DNA of 38,268 nucleotides. It comes from a virus. The notes under the pieces are model-generated. The model was not told where the DNA came from, did not search any database, and saw only the letters and a list, made by a program, of their open reading frames with translations. Positions 12,905-22,440 of the stretch are shown piece after piece. The stretch's first letter is position 1, and each line of letters begins with the position of its first letter. Both the position numbers and the translations under genes were made by a program. The DNA lies in the IMG/VR virus record IMGVR_UViG_3300030380_005324, positions 516-38,783 of that record; one strand, 5' to 3'.

Positions 12905-14479
12905 ATGGACCTACTTGACAAGACCCTGGAGGAGTTTGTAGAACTCTTCCAGGGTTCACTCACATATTTTGGAGCTTCTAAACCATTAGGCCAAACGCGT
13001 AGCCGGGATGGTAAGCAAGAATTCAGGCATTGGGTTGAACCCAAACCTATGACTAAGGATCATTGGGTACAACATTTAAAAGGAGAAGCTTACTATGGAT
13101 CAGTTCCCATTCGAGATGATAATACATGTAGTTGGGGGGTCATCGATGTTGATCGCTACAATATACAACATAAGGAAGTTATATCAGTTATACGGAAAAG
13201 GAAATACCCGCTCGTCCCGTTCAGATCAAAATCCAACGGACTCCACTTAATTTTATTTATTGATGGTGTAGTGCAGTCTTCGGACATGCGAAAAAAATTA
13301 ATAGAGCTTGCTTCTGATTTAGGAGTAAATGATACCACTACAGATATTTATCCCGCTCAAGATAAAGTAGATCTTACCCCCGAAAAGTGGGACGACAAAC
13401 ATAAGGGAAGTTACGTAAATCTCCCATACCAAAAAGCACACATGACAACAAGAGTTGCTATGGATGATGAAGGTAATTCTATTAAGTTAGAAAATTTATT
13501 TGAATTTGTAAAACAACACAGGCTTGATCCAGAAAATTTTAAAAAACTAAAAGTATTTCAAGATGATGAAACAAAAGATTATCCTCCTTGTGTTGTAAAT
13601 TTTATGAAAAATAAAGTACAAAAAGGTGAGGGCCGTAATGATGCTATGTTTAACGTAGCCGTATTAGGTAAAAAAATTAATCCAGATCCTGTCATGTACC
13701 AAGATTGGACTCGTAAGATGATGGGTAAAGTATGTTCCGAAGAATTACATCCAAAAGAATTAGAAAATATTTTTAGAGGAGTTGAAAATAAAGAATATGC
13801 TTATAAATGTAAAACATCTATTGCAAGAATGCATTGTTCATCAAGCACGTGTTTAAGACGTAAACATGGTATCGGTGCCAATGAGGCATTACCCGAAGTT
13901 GGAAAACTTGTTAAAGTAAATTCATATCCTGAGCCTTATTGGATTTTACCCATACAAGGAAAATCAGTTCGTTTATCTACAAAACAATTATATCAGCAAC
14001 AATTATTAGGAGAGCAGCTGTTAAATTATGATATTGTTTGGAGGCCTTTAAAAGCTACTAAAAGAGATCCAGATCCTTATAGAGATTGGCTTGAAGAATT
14101 AGTAACTAACAAACAAGACATGGAAGGTTTTGATGCTCATGAAGAACAGAGCGATGTATTTAACTCTAGATTATCTCAATTTTTGGAAGACGTTGAGGAT
14201 ACAACAGAGTTTGATCAAATAGACTCCGGGAATATTTGGATTGATAAAGTTGAGATGAGATTTAAATTAGAAACTTTTAGAAAATTTATGAAGAAGATGG
14301 GTTACAATTGGTCTGAAAAAGATTGCACAAAATTCTTAGAGGCAGGGGGAGCAATACCTAAGAAAAAATTTCAAAACATTGATACACGTCATTGGGTTGT
14401 GGAATTACCAAAACAAACAGAACATAAAAACAAAGATGTCACATTCGTTAAACAAAAAGCTGCGTGGGAAGACAATTAA
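12905..14479 (+). CDS. Archaeo-eukaryotic-type (AEP/PrimPol-like) DNA primase
   Basis: 524 aa. The AEP motifs are in order: motif I WGVIDVD with D81 and D83; motif II RSKSNGLHLILF, the SxxxH signature (H114); motif III TDIYPAQ (D147). A helical middle (VLGKKINPDPVMYQDWTRKM, then LHPKELENIFRGV) looks like a PriCT-type C-terminal region. It is followed by a Cys cluster (KCK, then MHCSSSTCLRRKHGIG) that may bind zinc. It probably makes primers for the PolA enzyme encoded 2 kb downstream. There is no SD; the ATG lies one base beyond the preceding TAA, so coupling is likely. The TOTE-type AEP clade is an alternative label. Confidence 0.75.
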   Translation: MDLLDKTLEEFVELFQGSLTYFGASKPLGQTRSRDGKQEFRHWVEPKPMTKDHWVQHLKGEAYYGSVPIRDDNTCSWGVIDVDRYNIQHKEVISVIRKRKYPLVPFRSKSNGLHLILFIDGVVQSSDMRKKLIELASDLGVNDTTTDIYPAQDKVDLTPEKWDDKHKGSYVNLPYQKAHMTTRVAMDDEGNSIKLENLFEFVKQHRLDPENFKKLKVFQDDETKDYPPCVVNFMKNKVQKGEGRNDAMFNVAVLGKKINPDPVMYQDWTRKMMGKVCSEELHPKELENIFRGVENKEYAYKCKTSIARMHCSSSTCLRRKHGIGANEALPEVGKLVKVNSYPEPYWILPIQGKSVRLSTKQLYQQQLLGEQLLNYDIVWRPLKATKRDPDPYRDWLEELVTNKQDMEGFDAHEEQSDVFNSRLSQFLEDVEDTTEFDQIDSGNIWIDKVEMRFKLETFRKFMKKMGYNWSEKDCTKFLEAGGAIPKKKFQNIDTRHWVVELPKQTEHKNKDVTFVKQKAAWEDN

Positions 14480-16049
14480 AATATTTGGACCACCAGGAAC
14501 AGGAAAAACTGAGAATCTTTTAAGAAGAGTTCAACGTTTTTTAAAACAAGGTATTTTACCTGAAGAAATTTGTTATATATCTTTTACTAACAAAGCTGTT
14601 GATGAATGCGTAAGTCGTATTCGTAAAAAATTTAGTGAGTATGATGAAGACTCCTTTAAGTATTTTAGAACTTTACATAGTTTAGCAAGACAACAGTTTG
14701 CAGAAATACCCGTGTTAGATCCTAAGGCAGATTTATTAATGTTTCATACTCAATATGGAACAGTAAAAGTAAATTTTAAAAATGAATATGATGATGTTAA
14801 AGTTTATAATAATTGGTCGCTTCAAATATATGACAGGGCAAGAAATATGAAGGTTGATCCTGTTTGGTTATATAAACAACAGCCAAGAAAAGCGGTGCGT
14901 CTACAGCAGTTCAAGTCTATTATTGCGGGATACGAGGAGTTTAAAACAATGGAAATGGAGAACGGAAACCGGACACCGGACAGATTAGATTTTACAGATA
15001 TGGTAAAAAAGTTTGTAGAGGATGCCGGGAGACTTCCTATAAAAGTTTTAATGGTAGATGAAGCTCAAGACTTAACCCCGTTACAGTGGGATATGGTCGT
15101 TAAAATTGCACAAAATGTTTGGAGAGTTTACATAGCGGGAGATGACGATCAAGCAATATACGAGTGGAATGGAGCTGAAGTAGAATACTTTCAAAGCTTT
15201 CCTGGAAGAAATGTAATTTTAAAAAAATCAGTAAGACTTAACAAAGACGTACATTTTTTTTCTAAATGTTTATTGTTAGGTATGAAAAACAACAGAGTAG
15301 AAAAAGAGTTTTATTCAAATGATAAAGATGGGGCCATATATTATTGGAATACCTTAAAAAAGGTACCATGGAATTTAACTGGTAGTTGGTTAATTCTAGC
15401 ACGCATTAACGATGTTAAAAAAGAATTACAAGAAGAGGCTAGGAATTTATCTCTTTATTATCAAGATGTTAAAGGTAACAAATCTTTTGACATGAACCAG
15501 TTTAAAGCTATTCAATATTGGGAAAAAGTATGTGAAGGAGGAAGTATTACTAGAGAGGAAGCTTGCATTATGTATGAGTATTTACTAAACATAGACCATG
15601 GATTTAGATCTCAAGATAGTAAAAAATGGTCGTTTGCTCATCCTAATCAGGTATTTAACTTTGACGAATTACATTTAAGATGTGGTATGACAGATAGTAA
15701 AGGTCCTTGGTTAAAAGTTTTTAAAAGAAAATTTAAAGAAAAAGATAAGCAATATTTTTTAAAAATGATTAAGGAGGGGGTAGATTTAAATCAACCTCCT
15801 AAAATTATTATAGACACAATACACCAAGTAAAGGGAGGAGAAGCAGATAATGTTGTTCTATCTAGTAAATGTAATTTTCCTTCGCACTTCGAGAAAAAAA
15901 ATTTAGCAGAAAAAATAAAAGAACTTAGGGTTTGGTATACGGGTGCTACCAGATCAAAGGGAACACTTCATTTGTTAGGCACTCATCATCAATTTAATTT
16001 TCCATTAGGAAAATATTATAAACTATACGAGGCTAATTATGTCAGATAA
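14436..16049 (+). CDS. Superfamily 1 (UvrD/Rep-like) DNA helicase
   Basis: I place the start at ATG 14436 (537 aa); a TTG at 14379 would only add 19 unsupported residues. Motifs: GPPGTGKT Walker A (18-25), ISFTNKAVDE (Ia), VDEAQDLTPLQWD (II), IAGDDDQAIYEWNGA (III), DTIHQVKGGEAD (V) and WYTGATRSKGTLHLL (VI). These define a UvrD/Rep-type 3'-5' translocase. It overlaps the primase gene by 44 bases, so the two are probably made together and may act as the replisome's primase and helicase. No DnaB-type ring helicase was found in the window. Confidence 0.9.
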   Translation: MSHSLNKKLRGKTIKIFGPPGTGKTENLLRRVQRFLKQGILPEEICYISFTNKAVDECVSRIRKKFSEYDEDSFKYFRTLHSLARQQFAEIPVLDPKADLLMFHTQYGTVKVNFKNEYDDVKVYNNWSLQIYDRARNMKVDPVWLYKQQPRKAVRLQQFKSIIAGYEEFKTMEMENGNRTPDRLDFTDMVKKFVEDAGRLPIKVLMVDEAQDLTPLQWDMVVKIAQNVWRVYIAGDDDQAIYEWNGAEVEYFQSFPGRNVILKKSVRLNKDVHFFSKCLLLGMKNNRVEKEFYSNDKDGAIYYWNTLKKVPWNLTGSWLILARINDVKKELQEEARNLSLYYQDVKGNKSFDMNQFKAIQYWEKVCEGGSITREEACIMYEYLLNIDHGFRSQDSKKWSFAHPNQVFNFDELHLRCGMTDSKGPWLKVFKRKFKEKDKQYFLKMIKEGVDLNQPPKIIIDTIHQVKGGEADNVVLSSKCNFPSHFEKKNLAEKIKELRVWYTGATRSKGTLHLLGTHHQFNFPLGKYYKLYEANYVR

Positions 16050-16287: not shown

Positions 16288-16441
16288 ATTTATAAAGTGT
16301 GAACGTTGTGACACAACATTTGCCGTAATTGTTTATGAATATAATTATTATTGCGCTGATTGTGCATTGTTTGAATTAAATATACCTTTTAAAAAAGCAA
16401 TATCAATTGAAGACGCAAATTTAAGTAGAAAGAAACAATGA
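16268..16441 (+). CDS. 57-aa zinc-ribbon protein
   Basis: Short ORF between DUF3310 and polA, overlapping the first by 20 bases and the second by ATGA. The N-terminus is basic (MPKKKSKFIK), followed by CERC and, 15 residues later, CADC: a four-cysteine zinc ribbon. Such peptides often bind DNA, RNA polymerase or a partner protein. Exact packing supports a real gene; function unknown. Confidence 0.65.
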   Translation: MPKKKSKFIKCERCDTTFAVIVYEYNYYCADCALFELNIPFKKAISIEDANLSRKKQ

Positions 16442-18306
16442 CTCATCAACTAAATTTTATCTATAACGACTCTGATTGGGTTTGCCCTGCGGAGTATCCT
16501 GATTTATCTAAAGCAACTGAAATTGCAATTGACTTAGAAACAAAAGATCCAAACATAAAAACAAAAGGATCCGGTTGGGCAACGTTTGATGGCCACATAG
16601 TAGGTTTTGCTGTTGCTGCATTAGATCAACAATGGTATTTTCCAATTGCACATGATGCGGGAGGTAACATGGATATTTCAATGACAACCGCTTTTATACA
16701 AGACATTTTAAAACTACCCGCAACTAAAATATTTCATAATGCGAGTTACGATGTTGGTTGGTTATTGATTAATGGATTTGAAATAAGAGGTAAAATTATA
16801 GATACTATGATTGCGGCCGCTGTAGTGAATGAGAATAGATTTAGTTTTAGTTTAAATGCTTGTGCTAAAGATTACTTAGGTGAAATTAAAAATGAAACTT
16901 TTTTAAATGAAAAAGCTAAGGAATGGGGAATAGATCCGAAAGCAGATATGTGGAGATTACCCGCAGGATATGTTGGTTTTTATGCTGAACAAGATGCGGC
17001 CTTGACCTTAAAATTATGGCAAAGACTTAAACATGAAATAGTAAAACAAGATCTTCATGACGTATGGGAAATGGAAATGGAATTACTTCCTATTTTAATT
17101 GATATGAGAAGACGAGGGATAAGAGTAGACATTGAAAAAGCTCATGCAATAAAAAAAGAATTTAAAGAAAAAGAATCTATTGTTTTAAAAAAAATAAAAG
17201 ATGAAACTACTATTTCGGTAGATATTTGGGCCGCAAGATCTGTAGCGCAAGTTTTTGACCGTATCGGTGTTGATTACCCACGGACAACGAAAACCGAAGA
17301 ACCAAGTTTTACGCAAAATTGGCTAATGAATTGTAATAACCCGATAGCGCAACTAGTAAGAGAAGCAAGAGAAATAAATAAATTCCATTCAACATTCATA
17401 GACTCCATTTTAAGATACACTCACAAGGGTAGAATTCACTCTGAAATTAATCAGTTGAGATCTGACCAGGGAGGTACAGTTTCGGGGAGACTATCATATT
17501 CTAACCCAAACCTCCAACAAATTCCTGCAAGAAATAAAGAGTTTGGAGATAAAATTAGAAGTTTATTTTTACCTGAAGAAGGTAGGCAGTGGGGGAGCTT
17601 TGATTATTCACAACAAGAACCAAGACTGGTTGCTCATTATGCGGCATCAGTTGCAAAACAATTTCCGGGAGCTGAAGATTTTATTCAAGCTTATGAAAAC
17701 GAACAAGCAGACTTTCATCAAATAGTTGCTGACATGGCGGGAATATCTAGAACTCAAGCTAAGACAATCAACCTTGGTTTATTTTATGGTATGGGTAAAG
17801 CTAAACTTGCTAGAGAATTAGGTATTGATAAGGATAGTGCAGAAAGACTTTTAAATACTTATAATGATCGCGTGCCTTTTGTAAAAAAATTAGCTGTTGA
17901 GGTAACCTCAAGTGCCTCTAAATATGGTTTTGTTAGAACCATTAAAGGTAGAAAATGTAGATTTGATATGTGGGAACCATCTTCTTTTGGGATGAATAAA
18001 GCAATGCAGTATGAAGAAGCAAAAGCAATTTACGGGAATAATATTAGACGTGCTTTTACTTACAAAGCTTTAAACAGACTAATACAAGGATCAGCCGCTG
18101 ATCAAACTAAACAAGCGATGATTGATTGCCATAAAGCAGGTTACATGCCACTACTCCAAATACATGATGAATTATGTTTTTCAATTAATGAAGAAAAAGA
18201 TATTCTTGATGTAAAAGAAAAAATGGAAAATGCAATTGATACATTAAAAGTACCATCTAAAGTAGATATTGCTTTAGGTAAATCTTGGGGCGAAGCTAAA
18301 GAATAA
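16438..18306 (+). CDS. polA: DNA polymerase I-like (family A) with 3'-5' exonuclease
   Basis: 622 aa. The exonuclease domain shows AIDLET (D32, E34), FHNASYDVGWLL and FYAEQDAALTL. The polymerase domain has GTVSGRLSYSNPNLQQIPAR, motif A SFDYSQQEPR (D389), motif B AKTINLGLFYG and motif C QIHDELCF (H576, D577). There is no 5' nuclease domain, as is usual in phage PolA, and no DnaJ-like insert between the domains. The residue equivalent to E. coli F762 is Leu446, not the Tyr of T7-like enzymes. It replicates the phage genome with the upstream primase and helicase. Confidence 0.95.
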   Translation: MTHQLNFIYNDSDWVCPAEYPDLSKATEIAIDLETKDPNIKTKGSGWATFDGHIVGFAVAALDQQWYFPIAHDAGGNMDISMTTAFIQDILKLPATKIFHNASYDVGWLLINGFEIRGKIIDTMIAAAVVNENRFSFSLNACAKDYLGEIKNETFLNEKAKEWGIDPKADMWRLPAGYVGFYAEQDAALTLKLWQRLKHEIVKQDLHDVWEMEMELLPILIDMRRRGIRVDIEKAHAIKKEFKEKESIVLKKIKDETTISVDIWAARSVAQVFDRIGVDYPRTTKTEEPSFTQNWLMNCNNPIAQLVREAREINKFHSTFIDSILRYTHKGRIHSEINQLRSDQGGTVSGRLSYSNPNLQQIPARNKEFGDKIRSLFLPEEGRQWGSFDYSQQEPRLVAHYAASVAKQFPGAEDFIQAYENEQADFHQIVADMAGISRTQAKTINLGLFYGMGKAKLARELGIDKDSAERLLNTYNDRVPFVKKLAVEVTSSASKYGFVRTIKGRKCRFDMWEPSSFGMNKAMQYEEAKAIYGNNIRRAFTYKALNRLIQGSAADQTKQAMIDCHKAGYMPLLQIHDELCFSINEEKDILDVKEKMENAIDTLKVPSKVDIALGKSWGEAKE

Positions 18307-19328: not shown

Positions 19329-19579
19329 TGATAAAATCAAAATCTGAAGCTTTCCAGGATTGGGTGAACGAAATGGACAAGGTACTTTCTGAAACTCAAA
19401 CTATAACAATAGATGGTCAACCGATGGAAGCATCTGATGACCATTTTAAATCACAAATAAATAAACTTGCAAAAGTTCCACTAGTCCTAGATGATCAGGC
19501 TATATATCCACTTAATTTGTGGACCACATCTGATTTAGTCCATAGTGAAATTGATGCAAAAAATATGGAGGACGAATAA
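19328..19579 (+). CDS. 83-aa hypothetical acidic protein
   Basis: Coupled on both sides by TAATG overlaps. Acidic; begins MIKSKSEAFQDWVNEMDKVL and ends in VHSEIDAKNMEDE. No recognised motif. Its position just before the ParB-fold gene suggests a shared transcript from the 19074 promoter. Confidence 0.65.
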   Translation: MIKSKSEAFQDWVNEMDKVLSETQTITIDGQPMEASDDHFKSQINKLAKVPLVLDDQAIYPLNLWTTSDLVHSEIDAKNMEDE

Positions 19580-20352
19580 TGTCTAAAGCAAAAAAGAAAA
19601 ACGAAGATAATATAATACATATTACTCGTGATTACAGTATGTTTAAAACTGTAAAAGGTAACCGAACAATTGATAAAGGTCACGTCAAGAGATTGGTTAG
19701 AGAAATGAAAAAAAAGGATTTAGAACTCCCGATTTTTATTAACGAAAATGATGAAGTTATTGATGGTCAACATACCCTTGAGGCGCGTAAAGAGTTGAAC
19801 AAACCGATACGTTATATAAGAGGTAAATTCGAAAATGAATTTGATGTTGCTGTTATGAATGCCAATAGAAAAAATTGGCCAATGACTGCTTATCTAAACT
19901 TTCACATTGAAAATGGTAAAAAAGATTATCAAATTGTAAAAGCCATGACTAGACAATACAGTTTACCGCTTGAGTGCGCTATGTTTTTGTTGACAGGTCG
20001 GTACTCAATGTGGAATAATTTAAGAGATGATTTCAAACAAGGTAAATTGAAAATCACTCACTTACAAAGATGTAATGATATTGGATCTTCTTTGATGTAT
20101 TTAAAAAATAATTTTAACATCAAATTAACTAGAGGATTTATTACTGCATATGCGGTAGTGTCAGAACATCCTAAATTTAAGTGGGATCGTTTTAAAAATG
20201 CTTTGAAAACGAAGTCTGCTTTATTGTTGCGGGGTACGAATACAGAAGATTTTATTAGAGTATTTGATAAAGTCTATAACGGAAATACCCAAAATAAGAT
20301 AAACTTTATTAGATATTTTATCGATAGAGATTATCAAAAAGATGAAGACTAA
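19579..20352 (+). CDS. ParB/Srx-fold nuclease-like protein
   Basis: 257 aa, TAATG start. The N-terminal ~100 residues carry the ParB/Sulfiredoxin pattern: FKTVKGNRTIDKGHVKRLVR, LELPIFINEN and DGQHTLEARKEL (the DGQHR-type box). The rest is helical, with the WPMTAYLNFH and ILTGRYSMWNN-like blocks seen in phage ParB-domain proteins. No ParA partner or parS array was seen, so plasmid-style partition is unlikely; phage relatives are usually regulators or DNA-modifying enzymes. The exact activity is unknown. Confidence 0.7.
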   Translation: MSKAKKKNEDNIIHITRDYSMFKTVKGNRTIDKGHVKRLVREMKKKDLELPIFINENDEVIDGQHTLEARKELNKPIRYIRGKFENEFDVAVMNANRKNWPMTAYLNFHIENGKKDYQIVKAMTRQYSLPLECAMFLLTGRYSMWNNLRDDFKQGKLKITHLQRCNDIGSSLMYLKNNFNIKLTRGFITAYAVVSEHPKFKWDRFKNALKTKSALLLRGTNTEDFIRVFDKVYNGNTQNKINFIRYFIDRDYQKDED

Positions 20353-20667: not shown

Positions 20668-20774
20668 TAATCATCGTATTCCAAATCACCTATATGGAAA
20701 AGTGGGGTTAAACACTTTACATTCAATAATCACGAAAAACTTTAATTAACTTAAATTTTGAGAGGTTAAGGTGT

Positions 20775-20879
20775 ATGGTTACGATAATTTTGTTTTTAGA
20801 CATATTTCCCGATTTTTTGGGAAACTTACATGCGGAGATTATCCATTCCATATCTTTTCCCTCTCCGCATGTAAAATAA
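20775..20879 (+). CDS. Putative 34-aa leader peptide
   Basis: ATG with GAGAGG nine bases upstream. The product is hydrophobic at the start (MVTIILFLDIFPDFLG) and ends SPHVK. Its TAA shares a base with the ATG of the next gene (TAATG), the overlap used by many confirmed neighbours. It contains both arms of the 13-bp hairpin, so ribosome progress would melt the structure. A GTG at 20771 in another frame would instead extend the next gene by 36 codons. Confidence 0.35.
   Translation: MVTIILFLDIFPDFLGNLHAEIIHSISFPSPHVK
20826..20874 (+). promoter_or_regulatory. 13-bp perfect hairpin in leader
   Basis: TTACATGCGGAGA (20826-20838) pairs without mismatch with TCTCCGCATGTAA (20862-20874); the loop is 23 bases. 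The stem ends five bases before the ATG at 20879 and there is no U-tract, so it looks more like a translation-control structure than a terminator. Confidence 0.45.
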
Positions 20880-21070
20880 TGGAAGATTTAGATAGCCTAG
20901 CTGAAGAAAAATTAGAAATGTGTAAGGGCCTCTCAGGGGAGGAGCGATCTGAATTTATAGAAAATCATTTAGATGATTATTATTTTGCCATGAATATTGT
21001 TTCTAACCCTAAAGTATTAAGGCATTATCGTGAATTATTCACTAAACTTGTTAAAGATTTTGGGCATTAA
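20879..21070 (+). CDS. 63-aa acidic hypothetical protein
   Basis: Starts MEDLDSLAEEKLEMCKG and continues FIENHLDDYYFAMNIVSN; acidic and helical. No SD is visible before the ATG, which fits coupling to the 34-codon ORF. Its last 41 bases overlap the next gene. Function unknown. Confidence 0.55.
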   Translation: MEDLDSLAEEKLEMCKGLSGEERSEFIENHLDDYYFAMNIVSNPKVLRHYRELFTKLVKDFGH

Positions 21071-21476
21071 TATATCACGAGAACTGCTTCGTGAACAACG
21101 GCTACCGGAGGAACGGTTGTTTCAGGCAATAATTCTACAAGCTTTTGAAGATTCATTAAGTGTTGGCGAGCATAAACACGATGCTTATTGTAAACAAGAT
21201 AGTTACGATTGGTTTACTAACGATACAAAAAATTTTAACAATGTTTGTTGGTTTGCTAATTTCGAGCCTGAAATTATTAGAGGTAAATTTAATGAATTAA
21301 TATCTAAAAAAATTATTCGATATACGAAAGTTCAGTTGAAATGGTTAAGATACCGTTGGTTATATAAACAATATCGAGCTACTATTGATAAGGATACTAG
21401 GAGAAAAATTCTTAAAGAGATAAAAAGTATTGAAGGTCTTAAAAAAGCCCCTGAGGATAATAAGAAAAAACAATAA
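21030..21476 (+). CDS. Conserved phage hypothetical protein (REQRLPEERLFQA family)
   Basis: 148 aa from GTG 21030 (AAGG seven bases upstream); TTG 21060 is an alternative that starts nearer the conserved part. The core RELLREQRLPEERLFQAIIL, then YDWF and FANFEPEIIRGKF, is a pattern I have seen in small proteins of marine phages. The C-terminal 60 residues are very basic (LKWLRYRWLYKQYRA, KKAPEDNKKKQ), suggesting nucleic-acid contact. Function unknown. Confidence 0.6.
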   Translation: MNYSLNLLKILGINISRELLREQRLPEERLFQAIILQAFEDSLSVGEHKHDAYCKQDSYDWFTNDTKNFNNVCWFANFEPEIIRGKFNELISKKIIRYTKVQLKWLRYRWLYKQYRATIDKDTRRKILKEIKSIEGLKKAPEDNKKKQ

Positions 21477-21563: not shown

Positions 21564-21666
21564 TATCCTCCCGAAGGCCCGAGAGTGTTTAAAAGGCTTA
21601 TATGGACCATTAAAGGGTAAAATATCCTCCCCAGACCCCGAGAATTTATCCTCCCCAGACCCCAAA
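21564..21666. repeat. Three TATCCTCCC-type direct repeats
   Basis: Copies begin at 21564 (TATCCTCCCGAAGGCCCGAG), 21623 (TATCCTCCCCAGACCCCGAG) and 21647 (TATCCTCCCCAGACCCCAAA). The last two are 24 bases apart and identical over 17 positions. GC-rich direct repeats are rare in this AT-rich genome. Confidence 0.7.
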
Positions 21667-21725
21667 AATTATACTATATAGATTATACAGACCCCCGACA
21701 AAGAAAAAGTACCCCTTAGGGTAAA

Positions 21726-21833
21726 TATGGTGTCCCTCGTGTCCCTCTAAGCAAATAAACTAGTAATAACAATGCTTTAAGTACCTTTTTATGGTGTCCC
21801 TATGGTGTCCCTATGGTGTCCCTCAGGGACACC
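21726..21833. repeat. Iteron-like array of TATGGTGTCCC
   Basis: Exact 11-mers TATGGTGTCCC at 21726-21736 and, head to tail, at 21790-21800, 21801-21811 and 21812-21822; a partial GTGTCCC is at 21739-21745. The last copy is followed by TCA and the inverted half GGGACACC (21826-21833), giving an 8-bp hairpin. An 11-bp period puts sites on one face of the helix, as in initiator or terminase binding arrays. Confidence 0.75.
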
Positions 21834-21906
21834 TAACAAGTAATATTGCTTAAAGAGATACCCTTCGTAACTTTTTAGAGGTGTTCTAATGTGTTAAAAT
21901 AATCTA

Positions 21907-21912
21907 TATAGT
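21907..21912 (+). promoter_or_regulatory. -10 box of terS, leaderless arrangement
   Basis: TATAGT six bases before the ATG at 21919. The -35 (TTCTAA at 21884-21889, 17-base spacer) is weak. No SD precedes the gene, as at the other proposed leaderless starts. Confidence 0.35.
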
Positions 21913-21918
21913 AAAAAT

Positions 21919-22440
21919 ATGGCCCAGATAAAAAAAATAGAAAGATCCGACAAAGACTTAACTCCAAAACAAAGATTGTTTGTTGATATTCTCGTTGCCA
22001 ATTGGGGCGAGATCACTTATGCTGAAGCTTGCAAACAAGCAAAATATGAGTGTAAAAATCCCACAGATTATTCCGCCATAGCTTCGAGACTTTTAAATAG
22101 AAGATTAAATCCCCACATAGCAAAATATTTAGACAAAAAATATGAAGAAGAAGTAAATAAATTTTCAAAAGATAAATTAAAAAGATTTAGAAGATTAGAT
22201 AAGTTATCAAAAGAGGCTGAGAAAAATAAACAATTTAATGTATCTGTTCAAGCTGAATATAGATCCGGTCAGTTAGCGGGTATGTATGTTGATAAAAGAG
22301 AGGTTACCGTTTCAGGCCTTGAGGGTATGAGCCGTGATGAATTAGAAAATAAATTAAAAGAATTATCAACTAAAATAGACGGATACAATGCTAAAACAAT
22401 TGAAGCGGAAACAACCGAGATCAAAGAAATTGAAAATTAA
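21919..22440 (+). CDS. terS: Probable terminase small subunit
   Basis: 173 aa. LTPKQRLFVDILVANWGEIT, then AEACKQAKY and ASRLLNRRLNPHIAKYL, is the helix-turn-helix DNA-binding layout of TerS proteins (KQ-RFV, T-EA---AGY, A-RLL--P-I). A coiled oligomerisation region follows (LKRFRRLDKLSKEAEKNKQ), then QAEYRSGQLAGMYVDKREV and an acidic tail. Recognises phage DNA for packaging. It lies 6 kb upstream of terL, with a leftward gene block between. The repeat array about 90 bases upstream is a candidate binding site. Confidence 0.7.
   Translation: MAQIKKIERSDKDLTPKQRLFVDILVANWGEITYAEACKQAKYECKNPTDYSAIASRLLNRRLNPHIAKYLDKKYEEEVNKFSKDKLKRFRRLDKLSKEAEKNKQFNVSVQAEYRSGQLAGMYVDKREVTVSGLEGMSRDELENKLKELSTKIDGYNAKTIEAETTEIKEIEN

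Follow-up and report, generated by a model that had tools for sequence, protein, structure and literature searches.

Introduction

Iteron origins that carry an IHF site are known from pSC101 and R6K, and in P4 the type I iterons, GGTGAACA, occur in both ori and crr. Repeats and IHF sites are likewise combined in lambda cosB, arranged as R3-I1-R2-R1 upstream of Nu1, and in P1 parS, where an IHF site lies between ParB boxes. The alpha protein of P4, the primase of which is of the Toprim type, uses a winged helix to bind the repeats of its origin, after which it unwinds the DNA and primes synthesis (PMC4234260). The replication protein of pRN1 also contains a C-terminal winged helix, in this case together with a prim-pol; the origin of pRN1 lacks iterons and contains a large stem-loop (PMC4234260). 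In geminiviruses, iterons differ between close relatives, and these differences are paired with changes in the iteron-interacting domain of Rep (PMC12548392).

For pelagiphages, a literature search in combination with iterons or replication origins found no pelagiphage paper, and a literature text search for the motif described below yielded no relevant paper. The text of a study on HTVC023P-type pelagiphage genomes mentions neither a replication origin nor an intergenic element (PMC9599517). Here, we describe a repeat array of an HTVC023P-type pelagiphage that, judging from sequence comparisons, is probably the replication-initiation site of this phage, with origin-type iterons that would be bound by the phage primase.

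Results

The window, i.e., the whole stretch of DNA analyzed in this study (38,268 nucleotides), corresponds to positions 516-38783 of a 38,783-bp IMG/VR virus record (IMGVR_UViG_3300030380_005324). Since its TerL shares 68% identity with the TerL of Pelagibacter phage HTVC023P, the window was assigned to an HTVC023P-type pelagiphage. The replication genes (primase, helicase, and PolA) are followed by the gene of a ParB-like protein, by u2 and u1, by the array, and by terS (Table 1). Pfam searches gave no match to the ParB-like protein, searches of Rfam and for tRNAs gave no matches, and the GC skew displayed no clear switch at the array. A gene for the ParB-like protein (phrog_12305) was found near most arrays, with no match in the record G010, in HTVC023P, and in the searched stretch of HTVC027P.

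Table 1. Positions of the array, its flanking elements and the surrounding genes in the window.
Feature	Position	Strand	Basis
AEP (PrimPol-type) primase, proposed initiator binding the array	12905..14479	+	phrog_21866, Pfam AEP-TOTE, CAPP prim-pol structures, array co-variation
Primase residues 450-500, predicted core of the C-terminal winged helix	14252..14404	+	AlphaFold2 models, modest confidence
Primase codons 487-493, (predicted) wing residues tracking the repeat class	14363..14383	+	co-variation
UvrD-like helicase	14379-16049		
PolA	16438-18306		
ParB-like gene	19579-20352		phrog_12305
u2	20771-21070		
u1	21030-21476		
Flanking element CTATATAGATTAT, left arm of inverted pair	21674..21686	.	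sequence; kept in relatives
Site 1, GGTGTCCCT, first of doublet	21729..21737	+	sequence; kept in relatives
Site 2, CGTGTCCCT, second doublet copy, start 9 bp from that of site 1	21738..21746	+	sequence; kept in relatives
IHF-like site TAACAATGCTTTA in spacer, 1 mismatch to WATCAANNNNTTR	21767..21779	+	consensus enrichment across relatives
Site 3, GGTGTCCCT, first of triplet	21793..21801	+	sequence; kept in relatives
Site 4, GGTGTCCCT	21804..21812	+	sequence; kept in relatives
Site 5, GGTGTCCCT	21815..21823	+	sequence; kept in relatives
Site 6, inverted copy (AGGGACACC on + strand), hairpin with site 5	21825..21833	-	sequence; relatives
Flanking element ATAATCTATATAG, right arm of inverted pair, directly preceding the ATG of the downstream gene	21899..21911	.	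sequence; kept in relatives
terS, array neighbor, not tracking the repeat class	21919..22440	+	phrog_51

The array is composed of five direct 9-mers and one full inverted copy, with an IHF-like site in a spacer of 45-47 bp. The preliminary description had reported four exact copies of an 11-mer within 97 bases, three of them head to tail at an 11-bp period, and these are indeed present (TATGGTGTCCC at 21726 and, head to tail, at 21790, 21801, and 21812); the maximum number of 11-mer copies within 108 bp was two in 100 Markov-simulated windows, as compared to the four observed. The fifth of the direct copies, CGTGTCCCT (21738-21746), had been overlooked. The supposed inverted half-site does pair with the last direct copy in the described 8-bp hairpin, but turned out to be a complete 9-bp copy (21825-21833). 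The probable terS about 90 bases downstream was identified correctly, as a phrog_51 TerS starts at 21919, 85 bp past the inverted copy. Being non-coding and made up of several short direct repeats spaced by roughly one helical turn, the array has the repeat structure of an iteron origin.

A single TerS scan of IMG/VR yielded 291 relatives, and an array profile detected 305 distinct array loci. The repeats were present in hundreds of relatives, so the objection that they might be missing from close relatives falls away. The 11-mer had to be given up as the unit, since the unit kept across relatives is GGTGTCCCT; at the 305 loci the site starts are nearly constantly 9, 53-55, 11, and 11 bp apart, and the inverted copy lies 8-9 bp after the last start. 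The sequence of the spacer is variable in the relatives, with an IHF consensus that is overrepresented on a single strand and, in most cases, at a single offset. Among 174 unique spacers, 17% contain the perfect consensus (0.6% after shuffling) and 50% contain it with at most one mismatch (9% after shuffling). An IHF consensus is hence found at a fixed place above chance, as expected for a nucleoprotein site bent by IHF, an action of IHF that is predicted here.

In the large records searched, one array was found per genome. In many relatives the array is separated from terS by at least one small ORF, so it is not simply a terS leader. A BLAST search of the array against phage isolates gave no match above chance, and the array search in bacterial genomes gave a single Streptomyces match, which was taken as chance. 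Left contig ends near the last repeat were noted for L103, L112, L145, L158, L175, L179, L271, and L272.

The inverted pair CTATATAGATTAT/ATAATCTATATAG surrounds the array in nearly all relatives, with its right arm ATAATCTATATAG located approximately 10 bp before the ATG of whichever gene comes next. This pair may be promoter-like or constitute a second protein site. Additionally, three copies of a 24-bp unit of the TATCCTCCCCAGACCCC type are located at 21566-21670 of the window; this unit is found in near relatives only, at variable copy number.

The repeat unit occurs in alleles, with GTGTCCC in 178 and GTGTATC in 121 of the 305 arrays (GGTGTCCCT for the CCC class and GGTGTATCT for the ATC class). 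The six arrays of a third class, the G class, have GGTGGGTCT-type sequences in the two sites of the doublet and in the inverted copy, and GTGTCCC in the triplet. No array mixing CCC and ATC copies was found among the 305 loci. Such a concerted change of all copies is expected of binding sites that are bound to match one protein. The joint change of doublet and inverted site in the G class, with an unchanged triplet, hints that these three sites act as a set. Further triplet classes of the form GGTG[ACG]NNCT were found only in unrelated phages. Genomes of the array family with GTGTCCC and with GTGTATC share the metagenomes 3300012920, 3300025101, and 3300030106.

The proteins with at least five sequences per class provided 5,370 alignment columns for a column-by-column comparison with the repeat class. 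Perfect separation of the classes was found in only two of these columns, both of them in the primase (residues 487 and 493), and primase residues 490 and 491 nearly separate the classes. The primases of GTGTCCC genomes have K487, Q490, and D/S493, those of GTGTATC genomes S/A487, K/Q490, G491, and Q493. After two extra primase scans had been added, all 41 contigs carrying both array and primase were consistent with this assignment (27 C, 13 A, and 1 G). For the 40 C or A contigs, the agreement extends over about five switches on the primase tree. The naive probability of this agreement is 8e-11, the contigs not being independent. On the primase tree, which was built without the motif columns, six class changes over three classes are found, and each independent pair shows the corresponding change of motif. 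Only two independent class switches are on strongly supported branches; the best tree has five. These numbers are too small for a formal sign test.

The closest comparison is provided by the CCC genome L543, which is nested with the ATC genomes L389, L531, and L540 on the primase tree. Of the 524 primase residues, 31 differ between L389 and L543, and five of these differences fall at 487-494 (p = 2.6e-5), a residue window chosen beforehand from other genomes. In L269, helicase columns 349, 355, and 357 are of the ATC type and ParB is identical to the ParB of an ATC genome, and both the primase motif and the array are CCC, so that this genome looks like a natural recombinant. In L401, an ATC array is accompanied by local genes of the CCC-like type; the primase is absent from the contig of L401. 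PolA reaches up to 97% identity across classes, and the gene after terS reaches 100%. Because primase and array are 7.2-10.3 kb apart in the relatives and the intervening genes do not track the class, physical linkage is an unlikely cause of the agreement. The choice of the allele follows primase residues 487, 490, 491, and 493 better than it follows any other protein tested. A match between the C-terminal domain of the primase and repeat specificity, as in a P4 ori-like system, was accordingly found solely by co-variation.

The catalytic domain of the primase is of the AEP (PrimPol) type and matches CAPP prim-pol structures. For the C-terminal region, AlphaFold2 (input without three rows from isolate records) predicted the order helix-strand-helix-helix-strand-wing-strand, i.e., that of a winged helix, with residues 487-493 in the wing. 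As the pLDDT of these models is modest (58-61) and a Foldseek search of the C-terminal domain against the PDB yielded no significant match, we only infer the winged-helix fold. The changes between the classes would be consistent with guanine being read by a lysine and adenine by a glutamine.

Discussion

The fixed geometry, the all-or-none alleles, and the co-variation with the primase support the view that the repeats form a protein-binding array, as had been suggested. Two functions had been proposed for it, a packaging site and a replication origin, and the co-variation with the primase argues for the latter. In the mechanism that we propose, the C-terminal winged helix of the AEP primase would bind all six GGTGNNNCT units (five direct, one inverted), and the wing would read the three bases at the center of the unit. 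A host IHF-like protein would bend the spacer and thereby bring the doublet and the triplet/inverted site into one complex. This complex would place the primase and, through the primase, also the UvrD-type helicase and PolA on the DNA, and strand opening and primer synthesis would start at the array. Points that weigh against this reading are the 7-10 kb separating the array from the primase gene, the GC skew without a clear switch at the array, the modest winged-helix models, and the small number of independent class switches.

The best reading is that the array would work like P4 alpha/ori, which is meant by analogy, homology not being claimed. Both systems have a primase with a C-terminal winged helix (predicted for the pelagiphage) and short direct and inverted origin repeats, and the pelagiphage unit also begins with GGTG, as do the P4 iterons. 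In contrast to P4 alpha, a Toprim-type primase fused to a helicase, the pelagiphage has an AEP-type primase and a separate UvrD-like helicase, and the fixed IHF-like spacer distinguishes it from P4 as well. Since primase type and domain layout differ, the pelagiphage system lies outside the P4 alpha family. An AEP-type prim-pol with a C-terminal winged helix, here predicted, is shared with ORF904 of pRN1, the origin of which has a large stem-loop instead of iterons. The direct repeats of about one helical turn together with an IHF(-like) site resemble pSC101 and R6K; however, no Rep of those families was seen, the co-varying protein being the primase. The paired drift of repeats and protein is similar to that of geminivirus iterons and Rep, although geminiviruses are unrelated single-stranded DNA viruses with a rolling-circle Rep.

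The layout also resembles lambda cosB, with repeats on either side of an IHF(-like) site upstream of a small terminase gene, which might suggest a pac or cosB-like site, where TerS would bind the repeats, an IHF bend would join the two halves and packaging would start nearby. The array is always located upstream of terS, and left contig ends are enriched, with eight of 140 lying 26-77 bp before the last copy as compared to about one expected. Nevertheless, we consider this reading unlikely. The contig ends are spread over tens of bases instead of marking a single position, large contigs pass through the array, and a short sequence common to co-occurring strains can break assemblies; as assembly breakage suffices to explain ends that are enriched yet scattered, they give no clear indication of a packaging end. 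Unlike at cosB, a fixed genome end was not found at the site, and ORFs may sit between the array and terS. Moreover, TerS does not track the repeats. Genomes of opposite class share TerS and the ParB-like protein at 98-100% identity, which means that neither protein sets the repeat sequence. For TerS, opposite-class pairs at 99-100% identity, N-terminal part included, were found; the 100% pair (L359/L269) may be an assembly chimera, and the 99% pairs are not simple chimeras, as their DNA differs at several percent of the positions. The pac site bound by TerS that the preliminary description had put forward therefore finds no support, and TerS was rejected as binder.

The ParB-fold protein, which had been named as another potential binder, fares no better. 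Its gene lies upstream of most arrays, the layout is reminiscent of P1 parS, and an apparent co-occurrence with the array across whole genomes made it an early lead. This lead fell with its identity across classes and with G010, a near-complete 57-kb record in which an array (diverged, and found by a sensitive profile) is present and no ParB match was detectable, so that a partition or regulatory site bound by this protein in the manner of P1 parS is highly improbable. It is also very unlikely that u2 or the helicase binds the array and that the link to the primase results from hitchhiking. Although u2 clusters by class for 160 of 164 nearest neighbors, helicase columns 349 and 355 nearly separate the classes, and array and primase occur together on 41 contigs only, neither protein has a perfect class-separating column. 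L269 breaks the link to the helicase, and u2, the best local tracker, was rejected because in L401 a CCC-like u2 is found beside an ATC array. Finally, the array might be bound by the primase as an operator, a copy-control element, or a recombination-start element (comparable to P4 crr) instead of serving as the main origin. The presence of P4 iterons in both ori and crr and the position of the array ahead of a gene start are compatible with such a role, which is quite unlikely all the same, as one array per genome leaves no separate iteron origin in the large records searched.

If the array is the replication-initiation site bound by the primase, then origin, initiator, and specificity residues of a widespread pelagiphage type would have been obtained from sequence alone, and the system would be a clean natural example of iteron/initiator co-variation. 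It would also serve as a warning that a position upstream of terS is no ground for naming repeats a pac site. It is possible, if somewhat less than probable, that the alleles represent two interchangeable origin specificities, with arrays swapped whole by recombination along with matching changes in the primase wing. These would then be natural replication-compatibility groups that limit the cross-use of replication proteins, e.g., by co-infecting phages or satellites.

HTVC023P, the primase of which is 26% identical to that of the window, does not contain GTGTCCC. At the same place upstream of terS it has ACTAGGAAAA-type repeats in a related layout, in which a doublet with 8-bp spacing is followed, beyond a gap of 44 bp, by two copies spaced 11 bp, then by an inverted half and finally by another copy. 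Other repeats are found near terS in HTVC027P and 023Pt_psg01. As far as these genomes indicate, the position of the repeats is kept while their sequence differs along with the primase. In HTVC027P (L086), TTTCACGTGAAACA near terS (about 15838) matches the core of the bacterial parS consensus.

GTGTCCC arrays were also seen in unrelated phages (L187, L192, L197, L240, L205, L219, L227, L238, and L251), where they were found only by the pattern GTGTCCCTnGTGTCCCT. They adjoin VapE-type primase genes and often terS, and in some of them inverted halves enclose a perfect IHF consensus (AAATCAACAACTTAG). Their location beside VapE-type primases is suggestive of primase-linked origins. As no detectable match was found between the C-terminal domain of the pelagiphage primase and the fetched ORFs of these VapE-type phages, the arrays were not taken as evidence of homology. 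A distant lineage (L222, L230, L232, L234, L241, and L250), with a G+C content of about 0.46, a phrog_51 TerS, and a similar PolA, carries AAAATGGTGTCCCTAGTGTCCCTAGTGTACCC directly before terS. In the unrelated phages L559, L560, L561, and L566, head-to-tail arrays of TATGGTGACCC have the same 11-bp period as the pelagiphage triplet.
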